Shown piece by piece: positions 34,809 to 48,579 of a stretch of 64,000 bases of DNA. The DNA is from Thauera humireducens (GTDB taxonomy: Bacteria; Pseudomonadota; Gammaproteobacteria; Burkholderiales; Rhodocyclaceae), in contig NZ_CP014646.1 of the NCBI RefSeq assembly GCF_001051995.2, positions 3,906,001 through 3,970,000 on the forward strand, given 5' to 3'. Below the pieces are notes generated by a model. The model was not told where the DNA came from. It did not search any database and saw only the letters and a list, made by a program, of their open reading frames with translations. The stretch's first letter is position 1. The number at the start of each line of letters is the position of its first letter. A program made the translations under genes and the position numbers.

Positions 34809-34844
34809 TTTGTCGTGGACAAAAGTGGAACAGCTGCCTAGCAT
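34809..34844 (+). promoter_or_regulatory. promoter of the MerR/B12 regulator with overlapping palindromic operator (site A)
   Basis: Palindrome TTTGTC-GTG-GACAAA at 34809-34823. A -35 like TGGACA (34816-34821, 5/6 to consensus) lies inside it, with TAGCAT (34839-34844) 17 bases further. The same 14-base core, read on the other strand (TTGTCCACGACAAA), recurs at the operon promoter near 37610. The placement suggests autorepression. Confidence 0.6.
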
Positions 34845-34905
34845 TCGCTTGCGGCCGGCAGCGTGCTGTCCGCTTATCGCCCCCCATCTTTGAGCCTCGT
34901 CCGCC

Positions 34906-35832
34906 ATGAATGCTGCCCCTCCGGAAGAGATCGCCTTCAACATCGCCGCGGTCGAGCGCGACACCGGCCTGCCAAAGGACACCTTGCGTGTGTGGGAGCG
35001 CCGTTACGGCTTCCCCGCGCCGGCGCGCGACGCCAATGGCGAGCGGCAGTACCCGCCCGAGCAGGTCGAGAAGTTGCGCCTGATCCGTCGCCTGCTGGAT
35101 CACGGCCACCGCCCGGCGAAGATCTGCGGCGCCTCGTCCGAAGAGCTGGCGCAGCTGCTCGCGCAGTACGGGCGTGCCGCCGCTGCCGGGGAGGAGGGCG
35201 GATGCGACAACCGCCTGCTCGAGTGCGTCTGCCTGCACCGCAGTGCCGAACTGGCGGTCGGCTTGCGCCAGGCCCTGCTCAAGCAGGGGCTTCAGCGTTT
35301 CGTCGTCGACACGGTTGCGCCGCTGGCCGCGGCGGTGGGCGAAGCCTGGCTGCGCGGCGAGGTCGATGTGTCGGAGGAGCATCTGTTCACCGAGCAGGTG
35401 CAGAACCTGCTGCGCAGCGCCATCGGCGCGCAGGCTGGTGCTGGCGGGCGTCCGCGCGTCCTTCTCACCACCCTGCCCGACGAGGTGCATGTGCTGGGCC
35501 TGCTGATGGCCGAAGCCATGCTCGTGCCCGAGGGCGCTTCCTGCGTGTCGCTCGGCACCCGCACGCCGCTGGCCGATATCCGCAATGCGGCGACCGGGGG
35601 CGGTTTCGACATCGTCGGCCTGTCGTTCAGCATCGCCTATCCGGCACGGCAGGCGGTCGACGATCTGCTGCAACTGCGCGCCAGCCTGCCGTCGCACGTC
35701 GCCCTGTGGGCGGGGGGGGCGGCGGTGCGTGACCGTCAGCGCCGCCTGCCGGGGGTGCGGGTGGTGGGCGATCTGGACGACACCCTCGTCGCCCTGCACG
35801 AGTGGCGCAGCGCCCACGAGCGTGGGGGCTGA
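34906..35832 (+). CDS. MerR-family regulator with B12-binding domain (CarH/LitR-like photoreceptor)
   Basis: A 308-residue regulator. The MerR HTH (about 10-80) contains FNIAAVERDTGLPKDTLRVWERRYGFPAP. A helical cap (about 100-178) and a cobalamin-binding Rossmann domain (about 184-300) follow. It has the W-x9-EH motif (W148, E158, H159) that lines adenosylcobalamin in CarH, and an ExHxxG motif with H195 as the likely lower cobalt ligand. CarH/LitR proteins bind DNA in the dark and release it when light breaks the Co-C bond. The operon from 37689 shares its operator. Light sensing is inferred from these residues, not shown. Confidence 0.88.
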   Translation: MNAAPPEEIAFNIAAVERDTGLPKDTLRVWERRYGFPAPARDANGERQYPPEQVEKLRLIRRLLDHGHRPAKICGASSEELAQLLAQYGRAAAAGEEGGCDNRLLECVCLHRSAELAVGLRQALLKQGLQRFVVDTVAPLAAAVGEAWLRGEVDVSEEHLFTEQVQNLLRSAIGAQAGAGGRPRVLLTTLPDEVHVLGLLMAEAMLVPEGASCVSLGTRTPLADIRNAATGGGFDIVGLSFSIAYPARQAVDDLLQLRASLPSHVALWAGGAAVRDRQRRLPGVRVVGDLDDTLVALHEWRSAHERGG

Positions 35833-35835
35833 GCT

Positions 35836-37539
35836 TCACGTGCCATTGCTGTTGGCCGGGTCGCTGTCACCCGCACGCTCGGCCTCATCGTTGCGTGCCA
35901 CTTCGGCAGCCGATGTGCCTTCATCCAGCGCCGCGAGCATGCGCGCGGCCTTCGCCACCTGCTCGGTGGCGCGGCGCTCCAGGCTCGCCAGGCGAAGCCA
36001 GTCCTGCATGGTATGAATGTCGAGGCGGGCGTGCGCACCGCCAAGCAGCAGGGCGGCCTTCAGTTCCTGGTACCGGGCTTCCGCCTCCTCCAGGCGCACC
36101 GACACTGCGCCGGGGCTGAAGTCCGGGCGACCGGGGTCGGCGGCTTCGGCCAGGCGGGCGACGGACTGGCGGAAGGTCTCGATCTCGGCGGAGAAGTCGC
36201 GCGTTGCCGTGCGTGCCAGATTGCCGGCAAGGGCGACTGCCTCGCGCATCAGCATGGCCGTCGTTTCCTGGTACTGCAGCGTGCGCAGGCTGTGCGCCAG
36301 TGTCTCGACGAGGGCGGGCGGCAGGCTGGCGCCGCTCAGCTGGCGCGCGTAGTTGCCGATGGCGGGGGCCAGTGCCTGCAGGGCCGAGGTTTCGTGCTCG
36401 ACGCTCGCTTCGTCCGGCGGCAGGCGGTTGGCTGCCGCCAGCGCGGCGACGGCGAAGCACTGGGTGCGTGACAGTTCCATGCGCAGCGCGTGGATCGCCA
36501 GGTCGGGGATCGCCAGCGAGTTCGTGTCCAGGTAGTGCGGCCGCGCCACTTCTTCCTCGCGCGTGCGGAAGCGGCTCGACAGCGAGCGCAGCATCAGGGG
36601 GGCGATCGGCACCATCAGCAGCACGCCGAGCAGGTTGAAGGCCGTGTGGAACATCGCGATCATCACCGCCGGCGTTGCCGGCTGCTCGAACCATTCGCGC
36701 AGCACGCCGAGCAGCGCGATCAGCAGCGGAAGCATCAGCAGCGCGACGGCACCGGTCACCAGGTTGAAGAGCACGTGGGCGGCGGCCAGGCGGCGCGCGT
36801 TGGAGGTCGCGCCCATCGCCGACAGGATGGCGGTGGAGGTCGTCCCGATGTTGGTGCCGATGACCATCGCGCAGGCAGCTTCGACCGTCAGCAGCCCGCC
36901 CTGCGCTGCGGTGATGACGATGGCGATGACCGCGCCGGATGCCTGCATCAGCACCGTGAGCAGGGTGCCGATGCCGATCAGGATCAGCCAGCCGGTGAGG
37001 CCGGGCGCGATGAAGTCCTGCAGGTCCACCATGCTGCCGACGCCCGAGAAGCTGTCCTTGAGCACGTCGATGCCGAGGAAGAGCACGCCGAATCCCGCGA
37101 GCGCCTGTCCCAGCGCACGCGATCGCACCGTGCGGCCGGCGAGCATCAGCACGGCGCCGATGCCGACGAAGGGCAGGGCGAAGGCGTCGATCCTGAAGCC
37201 GAAACCCAGGGCCGCAACGAGCCAGGCGTTCATCGTCGTGCCGACGTTGGAGCCGAAGATGACCCACAGCGCGTTCTTCAGCGACAGCAGGCCGGTGTTG
37301 ACGAAACCGATGCTGGCGACGGTGACGGCCGTCGACGACTGCACCAGCGCAGTGATGGTCATGCCGGCGGCGAGGCCGCGTGGCGCCGTGGCGGTGCCGC
37401 GTTCGAGCAGCCCCTCCAGAGCACGGCCGGCGGCGAGTTTCAAACCCTCGGTCATCATGTGCATGCCGATGAGGAACAGGCCGATGCCGCCCAGAAGGGC
37501 GGAAATCAGCTCGAAAGCAGTGGGGACGGGCGTTTCCAG
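35836..37539 (-). CDS. Na/Pi cotransporter family protein
   Basis: About 567 residues: two Na/Pi-cotransporter repeats with 8-9 membrane segments (about 1-330) and a C-terminal cytoplasmic PhoU-like helical domain (about 350-545). Repeat motifs are TALVQSSTAVTVASIGF with GSNVGTTMNAW, and LMQASGAVIAIVITAAQ with GTNIGTTSTAIL. It imports phosphate or serves an NptA-like role. The start is uncertain: the family N-terminus (ELISALLGGIGLFLIGMHMM) has no nearby ATG. A CTG at 37539 behind GGAG is used here; GTG codons at 37605 or 37617 are alternatives. The latter would overlap palindrome site B. Confidence 0.88.
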   Translation of the reverse strand: METPVPTAFELISALLGGIGLFLIGMHMMTEGLKLAAGRALEGLLERGTATAPRGLAAGMTITALVQSSTAVTVASIGFVNTGLLSLKNALWVIFGSNVGTTMNAWLVAALGFGFRIDAFALPFVGIGAVLMLAGRTVRSRALGQALAGFGVLFLGIDVLKDSFSGVGSMVDLQDFIAPGLTGWLILIGIGTLLTVLMQASGAVIAIVITAAQGGLLTVEAACAMVIGTNIGTTSTAILSAMGATSNARRLAAAHVLFNLVTGAVALLMLPLLIALLGVLREWFEQPATPAVMIAMFHTAFNLLGVLLMVPIAPLMLRSLSSRFRTREEEVARPHYLDTNSLAIPDLAIHALRMELSRTQCFAVAALAAANRLPPDEASVEHETSALQALAPAIGNYARQLSGASLPPALVETLAHSLRTLQYQETTAMLMREAVALAGNLARTATRDFSAEIETFRQSVARLAEAADPGRPDFSPGAVSVRLEEAEARYQELKAALLLGGAHARLDIHTMQDWLRLASLERRATEQVAKAARMLAALDEGTSAAEVARNDEAERAGDSDPANSNGT

Positions 37540-37608
37540 GGGGTGCTCCGGCGGGGCGAGGGATGGCCTAAGCGTAATACCGCAAGTCGTTTCGTGGAAG
37601 CGCACAAA

Positions 37609-37624
37609 ATTGTCCACGACAAAA
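37609..37624. promoter_or_regulatory. palindromic operator, site B
   Basis: ATTGTC-CAC-GACAAA(A), sharing a 14-base core with the palindrome at the regulator gene. It ends three bases before the -35 of the downstream operon and lies between divergent genes, so it could also affect the Na/Pi gene. Confidence 0.6.
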
Positions 37625-37626
37625 TA

Positions 37627-37655
37627 TTGACAGTCGGATTGGGCTGACCTACTGT
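37627..37655 (+). promoter_or_regulatory. promoter of the FAD oxidoreductase-cfa operon
   Basis: A perfect -35 TTGACA (37627-37632), a 17-base spacer and TACTGT (37650-37655). The -35 abuts palindrome B, and palindrome C falls at about +10 to +25, as expected for a repressed promoter. Confidence 0.6.
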
Positions 37656-37670
37656 TCAGTTGCAAACGAC

Positions 37671-37687
37671 ATTTGTCCAGGACAAAT
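37671..37687. promoter_or_regulatory. palindromic operator, site C
   Basis: ATTTGTC-CAG-GACAAAT, a perfect 7-bp inverted repeat with three-base spacer, ending one base before the first ATG of the operon. Its centre is 63 bases from that of site B, six helical turns, so both face the same side of the DNA. Confidence 0.6.
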
Positions 37688-37688
37688 C

Positions 37689-37934
37689 ATGAAATACGCA
37701 GCCAAGCTCCCCCGCATTCCCGTCCTTGTTCTTGGTCTCGTGACGATTCTTGGCGCGACCCAGGCCGTCGCCGTTCAGCCGGGCGCCACGTGCAGCCCGG
37801 TGCAGCGGGCGGACAGCGCGGCGCCCAAGGGGCCGGCGTCCATCGATCTCATGTTGTTCGCCCATCGGACCGACATCGCGCCCTTGCGTGTTCCCGCCCC
37901 CTCCGCTGAGGCGGTACAAGCCGAGCGCCGCTGA
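37689..37934 (+). CDS. small exported hypothetical protein, first gene of the operon
   Basis: An 81-residue protein with a clear N-terminal signal peptide (MKYAAKLPRIPVLVLGLVTI, cleavage likely after TQAVA) and a short mature part holding one Cys (GATCSPVQRA). No family is recognised. Its stop overlaps the next start (TGATG), so it is probably translated as the operon leader gene. Its position right under the TTGTC-N3-GACAA sites makes it the first light/B12-controlled product if the model holds. Confidence 0.65.
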   Translation: MKYAAKLPRIPVLVLGLVTILGATQAVAVQPGATCSPVQRADSAAPKGPASIDLMLFAHRTDIAPLRVPAPSAEAVQAERR

Positions 37935-39301
37935 TGAACGCGCCAGAGCATCTTTTCCGGGCCGGCGTCGGCGATCGGGCTGATGGCGGCCTGAGCCCGG
38001 GTGAACGCGTCGCGGTCATCGGCAGCGGGATCGCGGGCCTGGCGACCGCGTGGTTGCTCGCAGACCATGCGCGGGTGACGGTGTTCGAGGCCGGCCCCGA
38101 GGCGGGCGGCCACACGCACACCGTCGATGTGACGCTGGGCTCCGTCTCGCATCCGGTCGACACCGGCTTCCTCGTCTTCAACCGCCGCACCTACCCCAAT
38201 CTGTGCGCACTGTTCGCGACGCTGGGTGTGGAAGCGGTCGAGACCGAGATGAGTTTCGGCGTCAGCCTGGCCGAGCCCGGCATCGAGTGGGCGGGAACCG
38301 ATCTTGCGAGCGTGTTCGCCCAGCCGCGCAACCTCGTGCGGCCAGCCTTCCACGGGATGCTGCGTGACATCATGCGCTTCAACCGCGACACGACGCAGAT
38401 GGCGCGGGCCGGACAGCTCCCGCAGCTGTCGCTCGGCGACTTCCTCGTGCTCGAGGACTACAGCGATGCGTTCCGCGACTGGTATCTGCTGCCGATGGCG
38501 GCGGCGATCTGGTCCTGCCCGACGAGCACGATGCTCGACTATCCGCTGGCGACCTTCGTGCGCTTCTGCCACAACCATGGCCTGCTGCAGATCTTTGATC
38601 GCCCGCAATGGCTCACGGTGAAGAACGGCGGCCGCAGCTATGTGCGCAGGATGCTGCAGAAGATCGACGACCTGCGGCTGAACAGTCCGGTCACGATGGT
38701 CTCGCGTGACGAGACCGGCGTGTGGGTCAGTTCGTCGCAGGGCACGGAGCGCTTCGACTGCATCGTGTTCGCCTGCCACAGCGACCAGGCCCTGGCCATC
38801 CTCGGCACGCAGGCGAGTGCGGAGGAACGGCGCGTCCTCGGCGCGGTGCGCTACCAGGACAATGTCGCGCTGCTGCATACCGATGCGAACCTGCTGCCCG
38901 CGCGCCGCAAGGTGTGGTCGGCGTGGAACTACCTCGCGGGGAAGGGTGAGCCGGATACCCGCCCGGTCTCGGTCAGCTACCTGATCAACCGCCTGCAGCC
39001 GCTGCCGTTCGAGACGCCGGTCGTCGTGTCGCTCAACCCCTTCCGCGAGCCCGCGCCCGAGCGCCTGATTAAGCGCATCACCTACGCGCATCCGGTGTTC
39101 GACCATGGTGCCATCGACGCCCAGAATCGCCTGCCGCGTATCCAGGGCCGCAACCGCAGCTGGTTCGCCGGCGCATGGACGGGCTACGGCTTCCACGAGG
39201 ATGGCCTGCGTTCGGCGATGGCTGTGGCCGAGTCGATGGGCGTCGCGGTGCCCTGGCGCGAGGCCGTCGCCGGCGCGGTCGAGGCGGACAGAACATGGTG
39301 A
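37934..39301 (+). CDS. FAD-dependent oxidoreductase (amine oxidase/desaturase-like)
   Basis: A 455-residue flavoprotein. The dinucleotide fold VAVIGSGIAGLATAWLLADH begins near residue 26, followed by FEAGPEAGGHTHTVDV and VDTGFLVFNRRTYPNL. The C-terminal FAD motif is FAGAWTGYGFHEDGLRSAM. No signal peptide is seen. Relatives lie beside DUF1365 and cyclopropane synthase-like genes in many proteobacteria, and a role in oxidising or modifying membrane fatty acids is inferred from that association. The stop overlaps the DUF1365 start. Confidence 0.85.
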   Translation: MNAPEHLFRAGVGDRADGGLSPGERVAVIGSGIAGLATAWLLADHARVTVFEAGPEAGGHTHTVDVTLGSVSHPVDTGFLVFNRRTYPNLCALFATLGVEAVETEMSFGVSLAEPGIEWAGTDLASVFAQPRNLVRPAFHGMLRDIMRFNRDTTQMARAGQLPQLSLGDFLVLEDYSDAFRDWYLLPMAAAIWSCPTSTMLDYPLATFVRFCHNHGLLQIFDRPQWLTVKNGGRSYVRRMLQKIDDLRLNSPVTMVSRDETGVWVSSSQGTERFDCIVFACHSDQALAILGTQASAEERRVLGAVRYQDNVALLHTDANLLPARRKVWSAWNYLAGKGEPDTRPVSVSYLINRLQPLPFETPVVVSLNPFREPAPERLIKRITYAHPVFDHGAIDAQNRLPRIQGRNRSWFAGAWTGYGFHEDGLRSAMAVAESMGVAVPWREAVAGAVEADRTW

Positions 39302-40128
39302 GCGATTCGGTCGCGATGGATCGTGGCAGCCTGGCGACGGCGACGGCGACGGCGGCGGTCGGCGATCTCGATCCCGCGGTGTGCTTCGGCGCCGTGATGC
39401 ACGAGCGCCACGTCGCGGCGCATAACCGGTTCGTCTATCCGTCGGCTTTCCTGCGGCTGCCCTTGTCGCGGATCGATGCATTGCGCGTGCCCTTGCTGGG
39501 CATCGAACGCGCCGCGGCCTTCAGCTTCCGTCGCCGCGACCACGGTGCGCGCGACGGTTCGCCCCTGCTGCCCTGGCTGCACCGCATCCTCGATGCGCAC
39601 GGGTTGCGGCACGCCTGCGACGGCGAGGTGGTGCTGCAGACCATGCCGCGCGTGCTCGGCTACGTGTTCAACCCGGTCAGTTTCTGGTTCTGCCACGACG
39701 CATCGGGCCGGCTGCGCGTGGTGCTGGCCGAGGTCAGCAACACCTTCGGCGAACGTCACAACTATCTGGTGCACCACCCCGACCTGCGCCCGATCGAGTC
39801 CGGCGACGAGCTGCGCGCAAGCAAGATCTTCCACGTCTCGCCCTTCTTCCCGGTGCGTGGCGAATACCGCTTCCGCTTCGAGCGCAGGCCCGGCCTGCAC
39901 GCGGTCACGGTCGACCTGTGGGACGACGGCGTGCTGCAGCTTTCGACCCGCCTCGGTGGCCGCGCCGAGGCGCTGGACGGTCGCGCGATGCGACGCTGGC
40001 TGCTGCGCCAGCCTTTCATGACCCTGGGCGTGATCGCCCGTATCCATTGGCAGGCCCTGCGCCTTGCCGTCCGGCGTGTGCGTTTCCACTCGAAGCCGCT
40101 GCCGCCGCTCGAGGAGACCTCGCGATGA
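39295..40128 (+). CDS. DUF1365 domain protein
   Basis: A 277-residue soluble protein with the DUF1365 signature: GAVMHERHVAAHNRFVYPSAFLRLPL, RVLGYVFNPVSFWFCHD, NTFGERHNYLV and KIFHVSPFFPVRGEYRF. Biochemistry is not established, but the family co-occurs strictly with the flanking FAD oxidoreductase and methyltransferase, suggesting a joint lipid-modification step. ATG at 39295 overlaps the upstream stop by seven bases; GTG 39298 and ATG 39316 are alternatives. Confidence 0.87.
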   Translation: MVSDSVAMDRGSLATATATAAVGDLDPAVCFGAVMHERHVAAHNRFVYPSAFLRLPLSRIDALRVPLLGIERAAAFSFRRRDHGARDGSPLLPWLHRILDAHGLRHACDGEVVLQTMPRVLGYVFNPVSFWFCHDASGRLRVVLAEVSNTFGERHNYLVHHPDLRPIESGDELRASKIFHVSPFFPVRGEYRFRFERRPGLHAVTVDLWDDGVLQLSTRLGGRAEALDGRAMRRWLLRQPFMTLGVIARIHWQALRLAVRRVRFHSKPLPPLEETSR

Positions 40129-41357
40129 ACGCCCTGGAACATGCCCTGCAGCCGCTCGCCAGCATCAAGCTGTCGCGCCTGCCCCGCGCCACCCGGCTGG
40201 CGCTGGAGATCTTCGACCGCCTCGACGGCGGCGCGCTCGCCATCGAGCTGCCCGACGGCACGCACCTGCGTGCGGGCCACGGGCCGCTGGTGGCCCATCT
40301 GCGCGTGCGCGACCACGCGGTGTTCGACGAGACCCTGGCGCGCGGCGACATCGGTTTCGGCGAAAGCTGGATGGATGGGCTGTGGGACACCGAGGACCTG
40401 ACCGGCCTGCTGACCCTGCTGTCGCGCAATCGCGCGCGCATCGGCGAAGCGATCTACGGCCGCATGTTCCGCATGCTGGGCCACCGCATCGCCCACCTGC
40501 TGCGAGCCAACACCCGCGCCGGCTCGCGGCGCAACATCGAGGCCCACTACGACCTCGGCAATGACTTCTATGCGCTGTGGCTCGATCCGTCGATGACCTA
40601 CTCCGCCGCGGTGTTCGACTCGCCCACCGAGTCACTTCATGACGCCCAGCTGCGCAAGTACCGCCGCATCCTGGGCGAGCTAGGCGTGCAGCCGGGGCAG
40701 ACCCTTCTCGAAGTCGGCTGCGGCTGGGGCGGTTTCGCCGAGGTGGCCGCGACCGAATTCGGCTGCGGCGTGCTCTGCATCACCCTGTCGCCGTCACAGC
40801 TCGCCTACGCCCGGGCGCGCGCGGAGCGCGGCGGGTTTGCCGACCGCGTGGACTTCGCCCTGTGCGACTACCGCGACGTGCGCGGCCAGTACGACCACGT
40901 CGTGTCGATCGAGATGATCGAGGCGGTGGGCGAGCGCTTCTGGCCGACCTACTTTGCCCAGCTCTCGGCCCGGCTCAAGCCGGGCGGGCGCTGCGTGGTG
41001 CAGGCGATCACGATCGCGGATGCCCTGTTTGGGCGCTACCGGCGCGGAACCGACTTCATCCAGCGTCACGTGTTCCCCGGCGGCATGCTGCCCAGCCCGG
41101 CGGAGGTGGGGCGCCAGGCGCAGGATGCCGGGCTCGCGGTGGTGGGAGATTTCGCCTTCGGCCGGGATTACGCCCGCACGCTGGCGCACTGGCATACCCG
41201 CTTCGAGGCGCAGTGGCCGGCGATCAAGGCGCAGGGCTTCGACGAGCGTTTCCGCCGCATGTGGCGTTTCTATCTGGCCTATTGCGAGGCCGGCTTCGAG
41301 ACCGGTGACATCGACGTCCATCACTATGTCTTCGCTCACGCAGGAGAAGCCGGATGA
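40125..41357 (+). CDS. cyclopropane-fatty-acyl-phospholipid synthase family methyltransferase
   Basis: A 410-residue SAM-dependent enzyme acting on unsaturated acyl chains of membrane phospholipids. It has RRNIEAHYDLGNDFYALWLDPSMTYSAAVF, the SAM site LLEVGCGWGGFAEVAA, and IEMIEAVGERFWPTYF with the catalytic-site Glu region, then DFIQRHVFPGGMLPS. The N-terminal lipid-binding domain spans about 1-125. It could be a true Cfa or a methyltransferase of a furan/methylated fatty-acid route; the operon context (FAD oxidoreductase, DUF1365) leaves this open. ATGA overlap with both neighbours. Confidence 0.9.
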   Translation: MNALEHALQPLASIKLSRLPRATRLALEIFDRLDGGALAIELPDGTHLRAGHGPLVAHLRVRDHAVFDETLARGDIGFGESWMDGLWDTEDLTGLLTLLSRNRARIGEAIYGRMFRMLGHRIAHLLRANTRAGSRRNIEAHYDLGNDFYALWLDPSMTYSAAVFDSPTESLHDAQLRKYRRILGELGVQPGQTLLEVGCGWGGFAEVAATEFGCGVLCITLSPSQLAYARARAERGGFADRVDFALCDYRDVRGQYDHVVSIEMIEAVGERFWPTYFAQLSARLKPGGRCVVQAITIADALFGRYRRGTDFIQRHVFPGGMLPSPAEVGRQAQDAGLAVVGDFAFGRDYARTLAHWHTRFEAQWPAIKAQGFDERFRRMWRFYLAYCEAGFETGDIDVHHYVFAHAGEAG

Positions 41358-41920
41358 ACACGACACGGCGCCGTGCGCGGCTTGGCGCCTGCGTGGCTGC
41401 GGGGCTTGCGCTGGCGCTGCAGATGATGCCGCTGTACGCCTACGTGCTGCCCGCCGCCGAAGAGTTCGCGCCCGCGCCGCTGCGCGTACTCGGAGAGGGC
41501 GAGATGCGCTGGCTGGGCTTCAAGCTCTACGACGTGCGGTTGCTGGTGGCGGCCGGGGCGAGTGCGCCCGAGGCCGATCCCCATGCGCTGGCGATCCGCT
41601 ACGCGCGCGACATCGACGGCCGCCGCCTGGTGGACACGAGCATCGACGAGATGCGCCGCCTCGGCGAGCGCGACGAAGCGACGCTGCAGCGTTGGCGCGA
41701 CGAACTCGCGCGCGCGCTGCCATCCGTGCGGGCGGGCGACACACTCGTTGGCTTGCACCAGCCCGGCGAAGGGGCCCGTTTCTGGCACGAAGGGCGGCTG
41801 ACCGCCGAGATCGACGACCCCGAACTTGCGCGCGCCTTCTTCGCCATCTGGCTCGATGCGCGCACACGTGAGCCCGAGTTGCGCGCCCGCCTGCTCGGAC
41901 TGGACGGACGCGCGCAATGA
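41354..41920 (+). CDS. chalcone isomerase-like exported protein
   Basis: A 188-residue protein with an N-terminal signal (about 1-30, LGACVAAGLALALQMMPLYA) and the chalcone-isomerase-like fold pattern GEGEMRWLGFKLYDVRLLV, ALAIRYARDIDGRRLVDTSIDEM and RAFFAIWLD. Bacterial members are not known to act on flavonoids; lipid or fatty-acid binding is plausible. ATGA overlaps with cfa and the MFS gene couple translation. Confidence 0.82.
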   Translation: MNTTRRRARLGACVAAGLALALQMMPLYAYVLPAAEEFAPAPLRVLGEGEMRWLGFKLYDVRLLVAAGASAPEADPHALAIRYARDIDGRRLVDTSIDEMRRLGERDEATLQRWRDELARALPSVRAGDTLVGLHQPGEGARFWHEGRLTAEIDDPELARAFFAIWLDARTREPELRARLLGLDGRAQ

Positions 41921-43239
41921 ACGCGGATGGCGTTCGGCGGCGGGACCTGCTCGCCTATGGCGCGCTCGGACTGCCGCTCGCCTTCGCGGCCTTGCCGCTG
42001 TACGTCCATGTGCCACGGCTCTATGCCGAGCTTGGCCTGCCGCTGGCGACCGTCGGCGCCGTCCTGCTGGCCGCGCGCATCGTCGATGCCTTGACCGATC
42101 CCCTGATCGGCTGGGCGCTCGACCGTCGGCCCGGCCGCCGTGCCTGGGTGGCCGCCGCGCTGCCGCTGCTGGGCTTCGGCATGATCGGCCTGCTTGCGCC
42201 GCCGGACGGTGCGGGCGCCCTGTGGTTGTTCGTGCTGCTGGTGCTGGTCTCGCTCGGCTACTCGGTGGCGAGCATCGCTCACAATGCCTGGGGCGCGGAG
42301 GTGGCGCCGACCTCCGCGCTGCGCACGCGCTTCGTCGCCAGTCGCGAGGGTTTCGCGCTTTTCGGGGTGATGCTGGCTGCCGCCCTGCCGGCGCTGCTGG
42401 CCGCCGAGGGTGGCGAGGTGGGCGGGCTGGCGCGGCTGGCCCTGGTCTTCATCCCGCTGCTGCTGGTCTTCGGCCTGTGGACTCTGTGGCGGGCGCCACT
42501 GCCGGCAAGCGCGGCACCCGCCCGGCGCCCGGTGCTCGCCGGGCTCGGGGCGGCCTTGCGCGTGCCCGGCTTCAGCCGGCTGCTGGCGGTGTTCGCGGTC
42601 AACGGCATCGCCGCAGCCATCCCGTCGGCGACGGTGCTGTTCTTCGTTGCCGACGTGCTTGGCGCCACCGCCTTCGCCGGCGCCTTCCTGGTGCTGTATT
42701 TCGCCGCCGCAGCGGCCAGCCTGCCGCTGTGGGTCCGCATCTCGCAGCGGGTCGGCAAGTTGCGCGCGTGGCTGGCCGGCATGGGGCTGGCGGTGGTGGT
42801 GTTCGGCTGGGCGGCGACCATCGGGCAGGGTGATCTGCTCGCCTATGGCGCGATCTGCGTGCTGTCCGGCGTGGCGCTCGGCGCCGACCTGAGCCTGCCG
42901 CCGTCGCTGCTTGCCGACCTGCTGGCGCGGGACGATACGCAAGGTGGCGGGGGCTCGCACGCGGGCGCCTGCTTCGGCTGGTGGAACTTCGTGACCAAGG
43001 CCAACCTCGCGCTCGCCGCGGGCCTGGCGCTGCCGCTGCTCGCTGCCCTCGGCTACGCGCCCGGCGCGACGGCGCTCGATGCGCTGGCGGCCTTGTCGGT
43101 GGTGTACGCGGTGGTGCCGGTGGGATTGAAGCTGCTGGCCGTCGCCCTGCTGTGGCGCTGGCGCCACGTCCTCGAATCCGCGTCCGCGCCGCAGCTGCCT
43201 GCGGCTGCACGGACGCCCTGCGGAGCCTGTGAAACGTGA
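41917..43239 (+). CDS. MFS transporter (GPH/MelB-like)
   Basis: A 440-residue membrane protein with 12 predicted helices. The N-terminal half shows AARIVDALTDPLIGWALDRRPGRRAW, typical of the GPH cation symporter branch, and a central basic loop. The substrate is unknown. Embedded in the lipid-modification operon by four-base overlaps on both sides, it may move a lipid precursor or product. The C-terminal end overlaps the DUF3833 start. Confidence 0.85.
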   Translation: MNADGVRRRDLLAYGALGLPLAFAALPLYVHVPRLYAELGLPLATVGAVLLAARIVDALTDPLIGWALDRRPGRRAWVAAALPLLGFGMIGLLAPPDGAGALWLFVLLVLVSLGYSVASIAHNAWGAEVAPTSALRTRFVASREGFALFGVMLAAALPALLAAEGGEVGGLARLALVFIPLLLVFGLWTLWRAPLPASAAPARRPVLAGLGAALRVPGFSRLLAVFAVNGIAAAIPSATVLFFVADVLGATAFAGAFLVLYFAAAAASLPLWVRISQRVGKLRAWLAGMGLAVVVFGWAATIGQGDLLAYGAICVLSGVALGADLSLPPSLLADLLARDDTQGGGGSHAGACFGWWNFVTKANLALAAGLALPLLAALGYAPGATALDALAALSVVYAVVPVGLKLLAVALLWRWRHVLESASAPQLPAAARTPCGACET

Positions 43240-43766
43240 AGCGAATCCTTTGTGTGATGGTGGCCCTGTTCGGGCTGTGGGGGTGCAGTTCGGTGGAGAT
43301 CGACAAATACCGCAGCGAGACGCCGGTCCTGGACCTGCGCGAGTACTTCAACGGCACGCTCGAGGCGCACGGCATCTTCCAGGACCGTTCCGGCGAAGTG
43401 GTCAAGCGCTTCGCCGTGATCATCGACGCGAGCTGGCAGGGCGAGGTCGGGACGCTGGACGAGCGTTTCACCTATTCGGACGGCAGCACGCAGCGCCGGG
43501 TGTGGACGATCACCCGCACCGGCGAGGGGCGCTACGTCGGCCGTGCGGACGACGTGGTCGGCGAGGCACGCGGCGAGTCGGCCGGCAACGCGTTGCGCTG
43601 GCGTTACGTGCTGGCCTTGCCGGTCGATGGCAAGGTCTACAACGTCGACTTCGACGACTGGATGTTCCTGATGGACGACCGCGTGATGCTGAACCGTTCG
43701 GTGATGAGCAAGTGGGGCTTCCGCCTCGGCGAGGTCACCCTGTCCTTCTACAAGCGGGGCGGTTGA
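43236..43766 (+). CDS. DUF3833 lipoprotein
   Basis: A 176-residue lipoprotein starting at GTG 43236. The signal peptide ends in a lipobox (LFGLWGC, lipidated Cys near residue 17). The mature part shows DRSGEVVKRFAVIIDASWQGEVGTLDERFTYSDG and WMFLMDDRVMLNRSVMSKWGFRLGEVTLSF, the DUF3833 pattern. Function unknown; the calycin-like beta pattern would suit lipid handling at the envelope. It overlaps the SDR gene by one base. Confidence 0.82.
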   Translation: MKRILCVMVALFGLWGCSSVEIDKYRSETPVLDLREYFNGTLEAHGIFQDRSGEVVKRFAVIIDASWQGEVGTLDERFTYSDGSTQRRVWTITRTGEGRYVGRADDVVGEARGESAGNALRWRYVLALPVDGKVYNVDFDDWMFLMDDRVMLNRSVMSKWGFRLGEVTLSFYKRGG

Positions 43767-44554
43767 TGGGCTGGCTGGCGCCGCTCAACGCGCCGATCCG
43801 CGACTGGCAGGGGCGGCGGGTGTGGCTGGTCGGGGCCTCGACCGGCATCGGCGCCGCGCTGGCGCGGGCCCTGGCGGCGCGTGGTGCGCGTGTCGCGGTC
43901 TCGGCCCGCAGCCGCGAGCGGCTCGAGGCTCTGGCCGCGAGCGGCGGCGCCGGCATGCTCGCCGAACCGATGGACGTGACCCGGCCGGAAGACTTCGAGC
44001 GCGTACGCGACCGGCTGGTCATTGCCTGGGGCGGCATCGACCTCGTGGTGTTCAACGCCGGCACCTACCGCCCGCTGCGCGCCTGGGAGCTGCAGCCCGA
44101 GGTGATCCGCGAGACGCTCGACACCAACCTGTTCGGCACCATGGCGGGGGCCGCCGCGGTGATCCCGCATCTGCTGGGACAGGGCAGCGGCGCGATCGCG
44201 CTGGTGGGCAGCGTCGCCGGCTACGGCGGGCTGCCGAAGGCGACGGTGTATGGGCCGAGCAAGGCCGCGCTGATCAACTTTGCCGAAACGCTGTACCTGG
44301 ACCTGGCGCCGAAGGGGCTGGGCGTGTTCCTGATCGATCCCGGCTTCGTCGCCACGCCGCTCACCGCGCAGAACGACTTCCGCATGCCGGCGCTGATCTC
44401 CGCCGAGGACGCGGCGCAGGCGATCGTCGCCGGCTTCGGGCGGGGCGATTTCGAGATCCACTTTCCGCGCCGCTTCACGCGGGTGCTGAAGCTGCTGCAG
44501 TGGCTGCCGCGGCGCGCGTACTTCGCCCTGATCCGGCGCGCGACCGGGCTTTGA
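43766..44554 (+). CDS. short-chain dehydrogenase/reductase
   Basis: A 262-residue SDR. The cofactor motif is VWLVGASTGIGAALARALAARGA (about 19-41), then NAGTY, the catalytic Ser in LVGSVAGYGG and YGPSKAA containing the Tyr-x3-Lys pair. An Arg following the second strand (SARSR) favours NADP. Substrate unknown; probably a lipid-derived carbonyl or alcohol given the operon. Confidence 0.88.
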   Translation: MGWLAPLNAPIRDWQGRRVWLVGASTGIGAALARALAARGARVAVSARSRERLEALAASGGAGMLAEPMDVTRPEDFERVRDRLVIAWGGIDLVVFNAGTYRPLRAWELQPEVIRETLDTNLFGTMAGAAAVIPHLLGQGSGAIALVGSVAGYGGLPKATVYGPSKAALINFAETLYLDLAPKGLGVFLIDPGFVATPLTAQNDFRMPALISAEDAAQAIVAGFGRGDFEIHFPRRFTRVLKLLQWLPRRAYFALIRRATGL

Positions 44555-44556
44555 GC

Positions 44557-45009
44557 ATGCGCATGAACGAGCCGACGCGCCCCGTCATCGAAGACGCCGT
44601 CGAGGCGCTCGCCGACTTCTACCAGACGCTGACGCCGGCTTCGCTCAACCGGCTTGGCGCCCTCTACGCCGCCGACGCGCATTTCAAGGACCCCTTCAAC
44701 GAGGTGATCGGCGTCGCCGCGATCCGCCGCATCTTCGAACACATGTTCGCGACCGCGGACTCACCGCGCTTCGTCGTCACCAGTCGCATCGTGCAGGGTG
44801 ATCAGGCCATGCTGGGCTGGGATTTTCATCTGCGCCTGCGAGGGCGCGAGATCGTGGTGCGCGGGGTCAGCCACCTGAGCTTCGATGCCGACGGGCGCGT
44901 GGGCCTGCATCGTGACTACTGGGACCCGGCCGAGGAGCTCTACGCCCACTTGCCGCTGATCGGTGCGCTGATGCGGGGGCTGCGGCGCAGGCTGTCGGCC
45001 ACCGACTGA
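44557..45009 (+). CDS. NTF2/SnoaL-like protein
   Basis: A 150-residue single-domain protein with the NTF2-like pattern: ALADFYQTLTPASLNRLGALYAADAHFKDPFNEVIG, then FEHMFA and the beta-sheet RGVSHLSFDADGRVGLHRDYWDPAEELY. It is the last gene of the operon, two bases after the SDR stop. Members bind small hydrophobic molecules or act as isomerases; no specific activity can be assigned. Confidence 0.8.
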   Translation: MRMNEPTRPVIEDAVEALADFYQTLTPASLNRLGALYAADAHFKDPFNEVIGVAAIRRIFEHMFATADSPRFVVTSRIVQGDQAMLGWDFHLRLRGREIVVRGVSHLSFDADGRVGLHRDYWDPAEELYAHLPLIGALMRGLRRRLSATD

Positions 45010-45178: not shown

Positions 45179-45257
45179 AAAACCGTGTTGCGGCTGTGTT
45201 TTTCGCTATGGCAACATCGACCACGCCTGCCAAAACTACAAGATGTAGGGGGTGGTC

Positions 45258-46073
45258 ATGGAACGTGCCCGTCGCTTCGCGACTGCATCCGCCGCTGTCG
45301 GCCTTGCCGGTCCTGCGTTCGCGCAGGACTCGCCCGCGCGCTACAACCTGCAGGCGCCGGTGACCGGCATTGCCGAGCAGATCAACGACATGCATACCTT
45401 GATGCTGGTGATCTGCCTGCTCATCTTCATCGGCGTGTTCGGCGTGATGTTCTGGGCGGTGTTCCACCATCGCAAGTCCAAGGGCGCTGTCGCCGCCCAT
45501 TTCCATGAGAACACCGCGGTCGAGATCGCCTGGACCGTCATCCCCATCCTGATCCTGCTCGGCATGGCCTGGCCTGCGACCCGGACCGTGATCGAGATGA
45601 AGGACACCTCCAACCCCGACCTGACGATCAAGGCCACCGGCTACCAGTGGAAGTGGGGCTACGACTACCTGCAGGGCGAAGGCGAGGGCATCCGCTTCCT
45701 GTCCAGCCTGTCGACGCCGCGCGAGCAGATCGAGGGCGGCGCGCCCAAGGGCGAGGCCTACCTGCTCGAGGTCGACAAGCCGCTGGTGGTGCCGGTGGGC
45801 AAGAAGGTGCGCGTGCTGCTGACCGCCAACGACGTCATCCACTCCTGGTGGGTGCCTGCCTTCGGCGTCAAGCAGGACGCCATTCCCGGTTTCATCCGCG
45901 ACACCTGGTTCCGTGCCGACAAGGAAGGCATCTACCGTGGCAACTGCGCCGAACTGTGCGGCCGCGACCACGGCTTCATGCCGATCGAGGTGCACGTGCT
46001 GTCGGCCGAGAAGTACGCCGAGTGGGTCAGGAGCCAGATCGAGGCGCAGAAGGTGGCGCTGGCCGCCGAATAG
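45258..46073 (+). CDS. coxB: cytochrome c oxidase subunit II
   Basis: A 271-residue aa3-type oxidase subunit with an N-terminal signal (ends GPAFAQ) and two membrane hairpin helices (about 48-70 and 90-112). The periplasmic cupredoxin domain carries the CuA site: HSWWVPAFGVKQDAIPG and NCAELCGRDHGFMP (two Cys, His, Met and carboxylate). No cytochrome c domain is fused. ATG at 45258 follows AGGGGG; GTG 45252 is an alternative. First gene of the oxidase cluster and directly downstream of the FNR-type box. Confidence 0.95.
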   Translation: MERARRFATASAAVGLAGPAFAQDSPARYNLQAPVTGIAEQINDMHTLMLVICLLIFIGVFGVMFWAVFHHRKSKGAVAAHFHENTAVEIAWTVIPILILLGMAWPATRTVIEMKDTSNPDLTIKATGYQWKWGYDYLQGEGEGIRFLSSLSTPREQIEGGAPKGEAYLLEVDKPLVVPVGKKVRVLLTANDVIHSWWVPAFGVKQDAIPGFIRDTWFRADKEGIYRGNCAELCGRDHGFMPIEVHVLSAEKYAEWVRSQIEAQKVALAAE

Positions 46074-46165
46074 GGCCGCATCGCCGCGGCGGCATCCGGG
46101 TTGCCGCGTTTGTGAATCGCGTTGTTGAGTCGTCGTTGTAATGCTGTTCGACAGGAGGACCCCGC

Positions 46166-47743
46166 ATGGCCGCCGTCACACATGATCAGCTCCAGGGGCA
46201 TCACCCCGGCCCGACCGGCCTTATGCGCTGGCTCACGACGACCAACCACAAAGACATCGGCACGATGTACATGATCTTCAGCTTCATCATGTTCCTGTCC
46301 GGGGGCGTGATGGCGTTGACGATCCGCGCCGAGCTGTTCCAGCCCGGCCTGCAGGTGGTGCAGCCGGAGTTCTTCAACCAGCTCACGACCATGCACGGCC
46401 TGGTGATGGTGTTCGGCGCCATCATGCCGGCCTTCGTTGGCTTCGCGAACTGGATGATCCCGCTGATGATCGGCGCCAGCGACATGGCCTTCGCGCGCAT
46501 GAACAACTGGAGCTTCTGGCTGCTGCCGCCGGCCGCGATCCTGCTGATCGGCTCCTTCTTCGTGCCGGGTGGCGCCACCGCCGCCGGGTGGACGCTGTAC
46601 GCGCCGCTGTCGGTGCAGATGGGCATGGGCATGGACCTCGCCATCTTCGCCATCCACATCATGGGCATCAGCTCGATCATGGGCGCGATCAACATCGTCG
46701 TTACCGTGCTCAACATGCGCGCGCCGGGCATGACCATGATGAAGATGCCCCTGTTCTGCTGGACCTGGCTGATCACCGCCTACCTGCTGATCGCGGTGAT
46801 GCCGGTGCTGGCCGGCGCGGTGACGATGATCCTCACCGACCGCCACTTCGGCACCAGCTTCTTCAATGCCGCGGGCGGTGGCGACCCGGTGATGTACCAG
46901 CACATCTTCTGGTTCTTCGGCCACCCGGAGGTCTACATCATGATCCTCCCGGCCTTCGGCATCGTCAGCCAGATCATCCCGACCTTCGCGCGCAAGCCGC
47001 TCTTCGGCTATGCGTCGATGGTCTATGCGACGGCCTCCATCGCCATCCTGTCCTTCGCCGTGTGGGCGCACCACATGTTCGCCACCGGCATGCCGGCCGC
47101 TGGCCAGCTGTTCTTCATGTACGCGACCATGCTGATCGCCGTGCCCACCGGGGTGAAGGTGTTCAACTGGGTGGCGACGATGTGGCGCGGCGCGATGACC
47201 TTCGAGACGCCGATGCTGTGGGCCACGGGCTTCATCTTCGTATTCACCATGGGTGGCTTCACCGGCCTGATCTGCGCCATCGCGCCGATCGACATCCAGG
47301 TGCAGGACACCTACTACGTGGTCGCGCACTTCCACTACGTGCTGGTCGCCGGCTCGCTGTTCGCACTGTTCGCCGGCGCCTATTACTGGCTGCCGAAATG
47401 GACCGGCCACATGCCGAGCGAACTCCTCGGCAAGCTGCATTTCTGGTGCTCGATCGTGTTCTTCAACATCACCTTCTTCCCGATGCACTTCCTCGGCCTG
47501 GCCGGCATGCCGCGCCGCATCCCGGACTATGCGCTGCAGTTCGCCGACTTCAACGCCCTGGCCTCGGTGGGGGCCTTCGGCTTCGGCCTGTCGCAGCTGA
47601 TCTTCCTGGTGGTGGTGGTCAAGTGCGTGCGCGGCGGCGAGCGTGCCGCGGCGCGTTCGTGGGAAGGTGCCGAAGGGCTGGAGTGGACCGTGCCGTCGCC
47701 GGCGCCGCACCACACCTTCGAGGAAGCGCCGGTGGTGAAGTGA
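46166..47743 (+). CDS. ctaD: cytochrome c oxidase subunit I
   Basis: A 525-residue, 12-helix catalytic subunit. Heme a ligand is in TMHGLVMVFG, CuB ligands in HPEVY and AHHMF, and the heme a/a3 histidines in VAHFHYVLVAGS. WFFGHPEVYIMILPAFG is the classic A-type signature containing the K/D-channel landmarks. AGGAGGACC precedes the start. It reduces O2 to water with proton pumping in the inner membrane. Confidence 0.97.
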   Translation: MAAVTHDQLQGHHPGPTGLMRWLTTTNHKDIGTMYMIFSFIMFLSGGVMALTIRAELFQPGLQVVQPEFFNQLTTMHGLVMVFGAIMPAFVGFANWMIPLMIGASDMAFARMNNWSFWLLPPAAILLIGSFFVPGGATAAGWTLYAPLSVQMGMGMDLAIFAIHIMGISSIMGAINIVVTVLNMRAPGMTMMKMPLFCWTWLITAYLLIAVMPVLAGAVTMILTDRHFGTSFFNAAGGGDPVMYQHIFWFFGHPEVYIMILPAFGIVSQIIPTFARKPLFGYASMVYATASIAILSFAVWAHHMFATGMPAAGQLFFMYATMLIAVPTGVKVFNWVATMWRGAMTFETPMLWATGFIFVFTMGGFTGLICAIAPIDIQVQDTYYVVAHFHYVLVAGSLFALFAGAYYWLPKWTGHMPSELLGKLHFWCSIVFFNITFFPMHFLGLAGMPRRIPDYALQFADFNALASVGAFGFGLSQLIFLVVVVKCVRGGERAAARSWEGAEGLEWTVPSPAPHHTFEEAPVVK

Positions 47744-47869
47744 GCGGAGAGGGTGAAGGATGAGCGGGTGAAGAGTCTCAGGGGTGAGCGGGGAGCAGGG
47801 GTGGAGATCTCGGGAGAAGGAGGCTCTGCTCTCCGCCTCACCACCAGGGCCGCAAGGAAGGGAGATGAC

Positions 47870-47986
47870 ATGACGCGCAGCGAGGATCGCAGGGCAGCCA
47901 ACCGTCGGACCGGCCTGATGCTGGCCGCGGTGGCGTTCGCCTTCTTCGTCTTCGTCATCCTCAAGTACAAGGTGTTCGGGCAATGA
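47870..47986 (+). CDS. cytochrome oxidase small assembly protein
   Basis: A 38-residue single-helix protein: basic N-terminus (MTRSEDRRAANRRTG), one membrane segment (LMLAAVAFAFFVFVILKY) and a short tail. GGGAG precedes ATG at 47870. It lies between ctaD and ctaG, overlapping ctaG by four bases, the standard place for this betaproteobacterial small protein. Role in oxidase assembly is inferred from position. The 126 bases before it are purine-rich and hold no gene. Confidence 0.75.
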   Translation: MTRSEDRRAANRRTGLMLAAVAFAFFVFVILKYKVFGQ

Positions 47987-48579
47987 GCACCCACTCCGGC
48001 CGCCTCGCCACGGCGAACCGCCGCCTGCTGCTGCGGCTGACGGTGTCGGCTGCGGTGATGTTCGGCTTCGGCTTCCTGCTCGTGCCCTTCTACGAAAAGA
48101 TCTGCGAAGTGACCGGCATCAACAACTTCCTGCGGCCCGAAGCCGAGCAGGCCGCGCGTGCCGTTGCGAATACGCAGGTCGATACCAGTCGCCGCATCCT
48201 GGTGCAGTTCGACGCCAACCTGCACCACCTGCCGTGGCGCTTCCGGCCCATGCAGCGTTCGATCGAGGTGCATCCGGGGCAACTCGTGCAGGTCGAGTAC
48301 GAAGTCTCCAACACCCGCGACGTGCCGGTGACCGGACAGGCGGTGCCGAGCTACGGACCGCAGCTTGCAGGGCGCTACTTCAACAAGATGGATTGCTTCT
48401 GCTTCGAGCAACAGACGCTGGCGCCGGGCGAGCAGCGCACGATGCCGGTGGTGTTCGTCGTCGATCCCGCGCTGCCGGAAGACGTCACGGTGATCACGCT
48501 CTCCTACACCTTCTTCGAGCTGCCGGGCCGCAACACCGCCGGGCTGCAGTCACCGGTCCGTGCGGAGGGCGCCTCATGA
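47983..48579 (+). CDS. ctaG: cytochrome c oxidase assembly protein CtaG (Cox11)
   Basis: A 198-residue copper chaperone delivering copper to CuB of subunit I. One N-terminal anchor (about 15-38) precedes a periplasmic immunoglobulin-like domain with the copper site KMDCFCFEQQTL (CxC motif) and VFVVDPALPEDV. Four-base overlaps on both sides place it in the oxidase operon. Confidence 0.94.
   Translation: MSTHSGRLATANRRLLLRLTVSAAVMFGFGFLLVPFYEKICEVTGINNFLRPEAEQAARAVANTQVDTSRRILVQFDANLHHLPWRFRPMQRSIEVHPGQLVQVEYEVSNTRDVPVTGQAVPSYGPQLAGRYFNKMDCFCFEQQTLAPGEQRTMPVVFVVDPALPEDVTVITLSYTFFELPGRNTAGLQSPVRAEGAS

Follow-up and report, generated by a model that had tools for sequence, protein, structure and literature searches.

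How is the lipid-modification operon of Thauera humireducens controlled, and to which signal would it respond? The window studied here, 64 kb of a single-contig genome of 4.17 Mb, contains a gene for a MerR-type regulator with B12-binding domains and, further along the same strand, an operon at 37689-45009, and the palindrome TTGTC-N3-GACAA is present at the predicted promoters of both. We consider it likely that the regulator is a CarH/LitR-type, adenosylcobalamin (AdoCbl)-dependent repressor that acts in the dark on a regulon for photo-oxidative defence. The sites and the membership of the regulon are well supported; DNA binding, AdoCbl dependence, release by light, repression and bridging of operators are the parts that we infer. 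The elements concerned are the following, the promoters being consensus matches (predicted) and not mapped starts.

34809..34823, no strand: operator 1, TTTGTCGTGGACAAA, overlapping the -35 of the regulator
34816..34844, + strand: predicted regulator promoter TGGACA-17 bp-TAGCAT, a consensus match (-35 at 34816-34821, -10-type element at 34839-34844)
34906..35832, + strand: MerR-type regulator of 308 amino acids with B12-binding_2 and B12-binding domains (Pfam)
37609..37624, no strand: operator 2, the distal operon site, upstream of the -35, its 13-base core ending 4 bp ahead of that element; kept in Thauera propionica (locus L108)
37627..37655, + strand: predicted operon promoter TTGACA-17 bp-TACTGT, a consensus match (-35 at 37627-37632, TACTGT at 37650-37655)
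37671..37687, no strand: operator 3, the proximal operon site, downstream of the predicted start; kept in L108

In the mechanism that we propose, the AdoCbl-loaded regulator would bind in the dark to TTTGTC-N3-GACAAA operators that overlap sigma-70 promoters. Transcription of the regulator gene itself, of the lipid-modification operon and of unlinked photolyase-family genes would thereby be repressed. Light would break the cobalt-carbon bond, the protein would release the DNA, and the cell would then make enzymes that modify membrane lipids, together with photolyases and partner proteins, by which photo-oxidative damage would be limited. A pair of operators lies around the promoter (of the operon here, of the regulator in relatives), spaced by about 63 or 74 bp. 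This distance corresponds to complete helical turns, so that both operators could be held by one tetramer or by two dimers.

The sequence-only reading of this DNA had described three near-identical palindromes, the last two 63 bases apart. Exact copies of TTGTC-N3-GACAA were found at 34810-34822, 37610-37622 and 37673-37685, the last two centred on 37616 and 37679 and so 63 bp apart as claimed, and no further exact copy was present in the 64-kb window. The description as near-identical held for the arms; the centres (GTG, CAC and CAG) differ. The proposed placement was also recovered, with the regulator site over the -35 and the operon sites upstream of the -35 and downstream of the predicted start. 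The right half-site of operator 1 is itself the -35 of the regulator, a geometry that is similar in relatives, and both -35 sequences, TGGACA and TTGACA, are TnnACA half-sites. The GACA of operator 2 and the GACA of the operon -35 are separated by 11 bp, and operator 3 ends 3 bp ahead of the ATG at 37689 and includes the AGGA of a Shine-Dalgarno-like stretch. AdoCbl-dependent dark repression is the most likely mode of action: each site lies over or next to a -35 or within the early transcript, the spacers have a normal length, and characterised CarH/LitR proteins act as repressors in the descriptions consulted. The MerR-family fold would also suit an activator that distorts a long spacer in the classical manner; the predicted spacers are of a normal 17 bp, and sites that overlap or adjoin the -35 or follow the start suit repression, so that activation appears very improbable.

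Genome-wide, seven exact copies of the 13-base palindrome were found. When the genome was scanned for the 15-mer TTTGTC-N3-GACAAA, as the sequence-only reading had suggested, five sites were obtained and none for the reversed pattern that served as control. That reading had named a genome-wide scatter without promoter context as the outcome that would speak against it; six of the seven exact sites were intergenic or lay just before a start codon. The remaining one, at 1317753, sits within a 471-codon reading frame and is probably due to chance. The site at 721766 lies between a DUF3429 gene and an operon for an amine-oxidase-type flavoprotein, a photolyase-family protein and a DUF2256 protein, and that at 2717710 ends four bases ahead of the phrB start codon. 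An in-register consensus promoter accompanied three of the seven sites, namely those of the regulator, the operon and DUF3429, the last with the geometry of the regulator promoter (TGGACA-17-TAGCAT); the same test gave no consensus promoter at phrB or at a further site, 795191, described at the end.

Conservation of the site was determined upstream of regulator homologues. The named homologues were the best 80 of at least 588 confirmed stretches and represent 79 distinct loci, to which every count out of 79 refers; by their titles, all belong to beta- or gammaproteobacteria or to proteobacteria without a stated class. Within 450 bp upstream of the regulator, an exact site was present in 65 of the 79 loci and a site with at most one mismatch in all 79. 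Seven palindromes served as controls, five of them differing in their arms and two keeping the arms around a spacer of 2 or 4; none had an exact match in the same upstream regions, and each had zero to two matches with one mismatch. A separate set was drawn from our family sample of 121 genomes, in which the regulator is present in 50 and absent from 71. In the best 30 of the 50, up to 700 bp upstream of the regulator, the site was exact in 27 and had at most one mismatch in 30, and when palindromes were enumerated in windows that were not oriented by strand, TTGTC-N3 ranked first (12/30 and 10/30). Among the matches listed, the closest named relative by regulator was T. propionica (92% identical). 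Beyond the family, a phylum-wide sample of 398 genomes held eight regulator homologues besides that of the window; within 450 bp, three had an exact site, two a one-mismatch site only and three no site. A chance origin of the palindromes was rejected on this conservation, which includes sites that are kept where the neighbouring DNA has diverged.

The sites also follow the regulator gene. The 15-mer was present in 46 of the 50 regulator-bearing genomes and in 11 of the 71 genomes without the regulator (P 4e-18, uncorrected for kinship), with site totals of 92 and 15, respectively, against 4 and 8 for the reversed control. Among the 75 listed of the 107 15-mer sites, the centre fitted C[AT]N or N[AT]G in 57 of 61 sites from regulator-bearing genomes, as opposed to 3 of 14 from the others. 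Twenty site or operon regions were inspected, and four of them (G033 C285, G016 C311, G018 4.80 Mb and G098 C6) gave no coherent target; these are the four with odd centres. The regulator is the predicted binder of the palindromes, supported by its co-occurrence with them and by the site upstream of its own gene. Co-occurrence alone names no binder, and the sites in the 11 genomes that lack the regulator would be expected if another transcription factor bound the palindrome and the regulator gene were merely one target. We regard this as highly unlikely, because the sites track the regulator gene over 121 genomes, every named locus having one ahead of that gene, and because the TnnACA half-site and the 11-bp repeats described below fit published CarH operators, as known from partial sources.

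The sites are frequently doubled. A doublet was found at the regulator in 54 of the 79 named loci, with spacings of 63 bp (24 loci), 74 bp (20), 64 bp (5), 62 bp (2) and 73, 75 and 76 bp (one each); when all site pairs 14-140 bp apart were considered, 54 of 60 fell at 62-64 or 73-76 bp. The 63- and 74-bp classes were exchanged at least five times on a quick protein tree, and the spacers of the 63-bp doublets had a mean pairwise identity of 45%. In 47 non-redundant cases, TGTC stood 11 bp ahead of the proximal site in 51% and 22 bp ahead of it in 30%, against a background of about 1.6% per offset, and no 11-bp repeat of the TGTC type was detected at the distal site in the same cases. The site is therefore more than a palindrome: half-site direct repeats of 11 bp lengthen the proximal operator in roughly half of the doublet-bearing relatives. 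As these repeats precede the proximal site, the 11-bp step between the spacing classes has a material basis.

In the Thauera loci examined, the regulator mostly has a single site and the doublet lies at the operon instead. The operon doublet is spaced by 63 bp here and in T. propionica, by 63 bp in G103 (one copy with one mismatch) and by 61 bp in L112; the operon of L124 has one exact site, and no site was found at the operons of L109 and L110 in the stretch examined. L110 carries a one-mismatch pair, 74 bp apart, at its regulator. Relative to the regulator promoters, the operon promoter is shifted 11 bp away from the distal site, and the operon doublet may therefore have arisen separately from the regulator doublets.

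We then considered what the regulator itself reveals about the signal. Pfam identified MerR_1 (9e-15), B12-binding_2 (6e-6) and B12-binding (3e-9) domains, each above its cut-off, and the W-x9-EH and ExHxxG residues named in the sequence-only reading are indeed in place. The two motifs together have been called defining for CarH-type receptors (PMC8156234, in part). Both motifs were present in 78 of the 79 named homologues, the exception being L173, and W148, E158, H159, E193, H195, G198, G217 and P221 were invariant in 29 of 29 aligned homologues. The best structural relatives were full-length Thermus CarH chains, which matched residues 10-292 with an E value of about 1e-28. The genome encodes a CobA/CobO/BtuR-family (AdoCbl-forming) gene and four cobalamin riboswitches, so AdoCbl should be available. 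Light as the signal is supported indirectly, by the B12-photoreceptor residues and by the photolyase-family genes among the predicted targets.

Several observations weigh against a light-responsive CarH-type repressor with these operators. The regulator scored 127 bits against the NCBIfam model NF052513 (CarH equivalog), for which the cut-off is 400, even though this was its best NCBIfam match; owing to this score we describe the protein as CarH-type and not as NCBI's CarH equivalog. A His beside the Trp was found in none of the 78 motif-bearing homologues (Met in 25, Glu in 22, Leu in 21, others in 10), and with no His there the protein could not adopt the bis-His state that Thermus CarH takes in the light. 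From the published light signature of GxxW, EH, GxxH and GxxxP (PMC11796333, in part), GxxW, EH and GxxxP are present, and the GxxH element has Asp for Gly with its His retained. There was no doublet at the regulator in 25 of the 79 named loci. The P values ignore kinship, and related genomes are non-independent samples. The phrB loci of 30 of the 81 phrB-bearing genomes were examined, and in the 25 that come from regulator-bearing genomes an exact site was seen in two (this one and one of the same genus), a one-mismatch site in two and none in 21; phrB was accordingly rejected as a core target across the family. Finally, one-mismatch sites were not enriched in the T. humireducens genome (98 against 86 for the control). 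With the two counts so alike, one-mismatch sites were rejected as a target list, and weight is given only to sites that are exact or conserved. The same counts are what could be said for chance palindromes; in view of the five exact 15-mers against none, the co-occurrence with the regulator, the site upstream of the regulator in all 79 named loci and its retention in L108, we judge the probability of chance to be negligible.

The missing His also speaks for another explanation, that the regulator binds these operators without being the light sensor, and instead senses B12 level or redox state or is released by a partner, as are the class II LitR proteins of Pseudomonas. The arrangement of two sites, the first at the -35 and the second between the start and the ATG, is shared by PmlR2 of P. 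mendocina, which a LOV protein releases (PMC9758184, in part). However, class II LitR keeps only one B12 domain, whereas the present protein has both and keeps the four key AdoCbl residues in 29 of 29 homologues. In addition, CtMerR, which has Arg in place of the His that caps cobalt after photolysis in Thermus CarH, was reported to be light-responsive without the bis-His state (PMC11796333, in part). We thus hold a regulator that is not the light sensor to be unlikely, and the AdoCbl-dependent light-released repressor to be the better account.

Known systems offer further points of comparison. As in CarH of Thermus thermophilus and Bacillus megaterium (class I LitR), the protein combines a MerR domain with two B12 domains, W-x9-EH and ExHxxG. 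The operator overlaps the -35 and has a TnnACA half-site, and 11-bp repeats are seen at the proximal site in about half of the relatives with a doublet; published CarH operators are built from 11-bp repeats in tandem that contain TnnACA, and the -35 falls within one of these repeats (PMC9304148 and PMC8156234, both in part). In contrast to the present case, the CarH operators in these sources, which were studied at carotenoid genes, have three or four such direct repeats; the present site is a short palindrome that lies at genes for photo-oxidative defence and frequently occurs as a pair spaced by about 63 or 74 bp, and its regulator has no His beside the Trp. The same two papers call CarH operators plastic, and the CarA sites of Myxococcus have been interpreted as inverted repeats; for this reason we regard the palindrome as a variant and not a contradiction. 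PmlR2 and PplR resemble our system in the two-site layout and in a light regulon with photolyase-type genes, the P. putida relatives of PmlR2 controlling PhrB, UfaM, FolE and CryB (PMC9758184, in part); they differ, on the same partial basis, in having one of the two B12 domains, a LOV partner that senses light and the site TGTACA-N12-TGTACA. Identity with class II LitR was rejected given the second B12 domain and the different site. The class III LitR of Burkholderia may be a closer parallel still. In Vibrio cholerae, a MerR-family protein next to phr (VCA0056) joins the blue-light response together with ChrR, and in the portion of that paper at hand no operator is described and the term 'binding site' does not occur (PMC5241685).

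Which genes would be under this control? The operon and the gene that separates it from the regulator are as follows.

35836..37443, - strand: Na/Pi-cotransporter-type gene, start codon uncertain, between regulator and operon and outside the proposed regulon
37689..37934, + strand: first operon gene, 81 amino acids, no family match
37934..39301, + strand: FAD-dependent amine-oxidase-type protein (family search), presumably COG2907-like
39265..40128, + strand: DUF1365 protein, start codon uncertain
40128..41357, + strand: cyclopropane-fatty-acid-synthase-type methyltransferase (CMAS)
41354..41920, + strand: chalcone isomerase-like protein (Chalcone_3)
41917..43239, + strand: MFS_2-type transporter
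43236..43766, + strand: DUF3833 protein
43763..44554, + strand: short-chain dehydrogenase/reductase, start codon uncertain
44551..45009, + strand: SnoaL_2/NTF2-like protein, the final gene of the run

A regulon of nine genes had been proposed from the window. This number does not hold, and the regulon seems to add phrB, the flavoprotein/photolyase-family/DUF2256 operon and DUF3429. Regulator and operon amine-oxidase gene occurred together in 47 of the 121 genomes, the regulator alone in 3, the amine-oxidase gene alone in 6 and neither in 65. The two are divergent neighbours in 38 of the 47, on different contigs in 6 and far apart in 2; here they share a strand, with the Na/Pi-cotransporter gene between them. 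Directly ahead of the amine-oxidase gene, folE2 was found in 6 of the 30 best operon loci (the query folE2 came from G056 and its identity was checked). Sites were also seen beside fasciclin genes (G033, G091), a lipocalin gene (G112), a halogenase-type flavoprotein gene (G067) and, divergent from the regulator, a glutathione peroxidase gene (G046, G117), and the site between DUF3429 and photolyase-family genes recurs in G060 and G067. For a gene that we take to be of COG3380 type, an exact site was present in the 6 closest of 12 homologues and in none of the 6 more distant ones. A similar membrane-protein-like gene is preceded by a site in both L239 (G091) and L235 (G033), and its G091 copy has no Pfam match.

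Largely the same kinds of genes are governed by RpoE and ChrR in Rhodobacter sphaeroides, the likeness being drawn from gene descriptions and not from sequence. Its RpoE regulon comprises cfaS, phrA, RSP_1087-1091, a fasciclin gene, folE2 and others (PMC7074977 Table 1, in part), and RSP_1087-1091 are two CFA (cyclopropane fatty acid)-type proteins, a GPH symporter, a hypothetical protein and a short-chain dehydrogenase/reductase (PMC7074977, in part). The R. sphaeroides system is a sigma/anti-sigma pair answering to singlet oxygen, whereas the present regulator is a repressor-type B12 protein. No TIGR02451 match at E <= 0.001 was obtained in the T. humireducens genome, and a ChrR regulon was therefore rejected for it. 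Across the family sample, ChrR exceeded the curated cut-off in 2 of 121 genomes (G024 and G085), in both of which it lies beside this operon and the regulator is lacking. Pfam and NCBIfam both confirmed the ChrR of G024, and in G085 Pfam identified a sigma-70-type factor (G024:C83, G085:C443; L255, L256). At E <= 0.001, ChrR-like matches were present in 40 of the 121 genomes; as only G024 and G085 exceeded the cut-off, the weak ones were discounted, and those of G002, G013 and G075 are off the operon's contig. Four genomes (G002, G013, G056 and G075) have the operon with neither the regulator nor an above-cut-off ChrR, the completeness of G056 being 85% and that of G002 83%. G056 contains one 15-mer site, and no palindrome was detected within 1.5 kb upstream of the operon in G013 and G075 (L253, L254). 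The operon stands beside two kinds of sensor, the B12 regulator or ChrR.

Class I LitR/CarH receptors are described as serving mainly light-inducible carotenoid production (PMC9758184, in part). Here, in bacteria such as Thauera, Zoogloea and Accumulibacter, a class I-type receptor appears to be wired to the kinds of genes that a singlet-oxygen sigma factor runs in Rhodobacter. As a tentative proposal, which we hold with less confidence than the dark repressor itself, control of the singlet-oxygen defence regulon may have passed to a B12 photoreceptor in many members of the Rhodocyclales and in groups close to them, 'sense light' replacing the 'sense damage' of RpoE-ChrR. The photoreceptor might have achieved this through a new CarH operator design, in which two convergent operators around a promoter, six or seven helical turns apart, would be bridged by one AdoCbl tetramer, and the step between the spacing classes would equal one 11-bp direct-repeat unit. 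The system offers a testable regulon, an operator code and a spacing rule, as well as one operon under two kinds of sensor. Among the papers listed in literature searches, none contained the full 13-base site, and their entries and abstract openings gave no account of this operator in these bacteria, though a paper with the string alone could escape such a search and earlier publication cannot be excluded.

Some minor observations were made alongside. The first codons of the 81-amino-acid protein that opens the operon are kept in T. propionica (L108), together with the preceding doublet. Cytochrome c oxidase-type genes, named from their translations alone, follow the operon on the same strand at 45252-48579. 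G048, a genome of the same genus that is 99% complete, gave no match to the regulator or the amine-oxidase gene, and keeps phrB without a site. The exact site at 795191, TTTTGTCCAGGACAAAT (L187, G000:C1:791000-799500, at about 4192), has an alpha/beta hydrolase gene on one side and, on the other, a gene for a chemotaxis receptor with an MCP signal domain; were the receptor the target of this site, light might also adjust behaviour.

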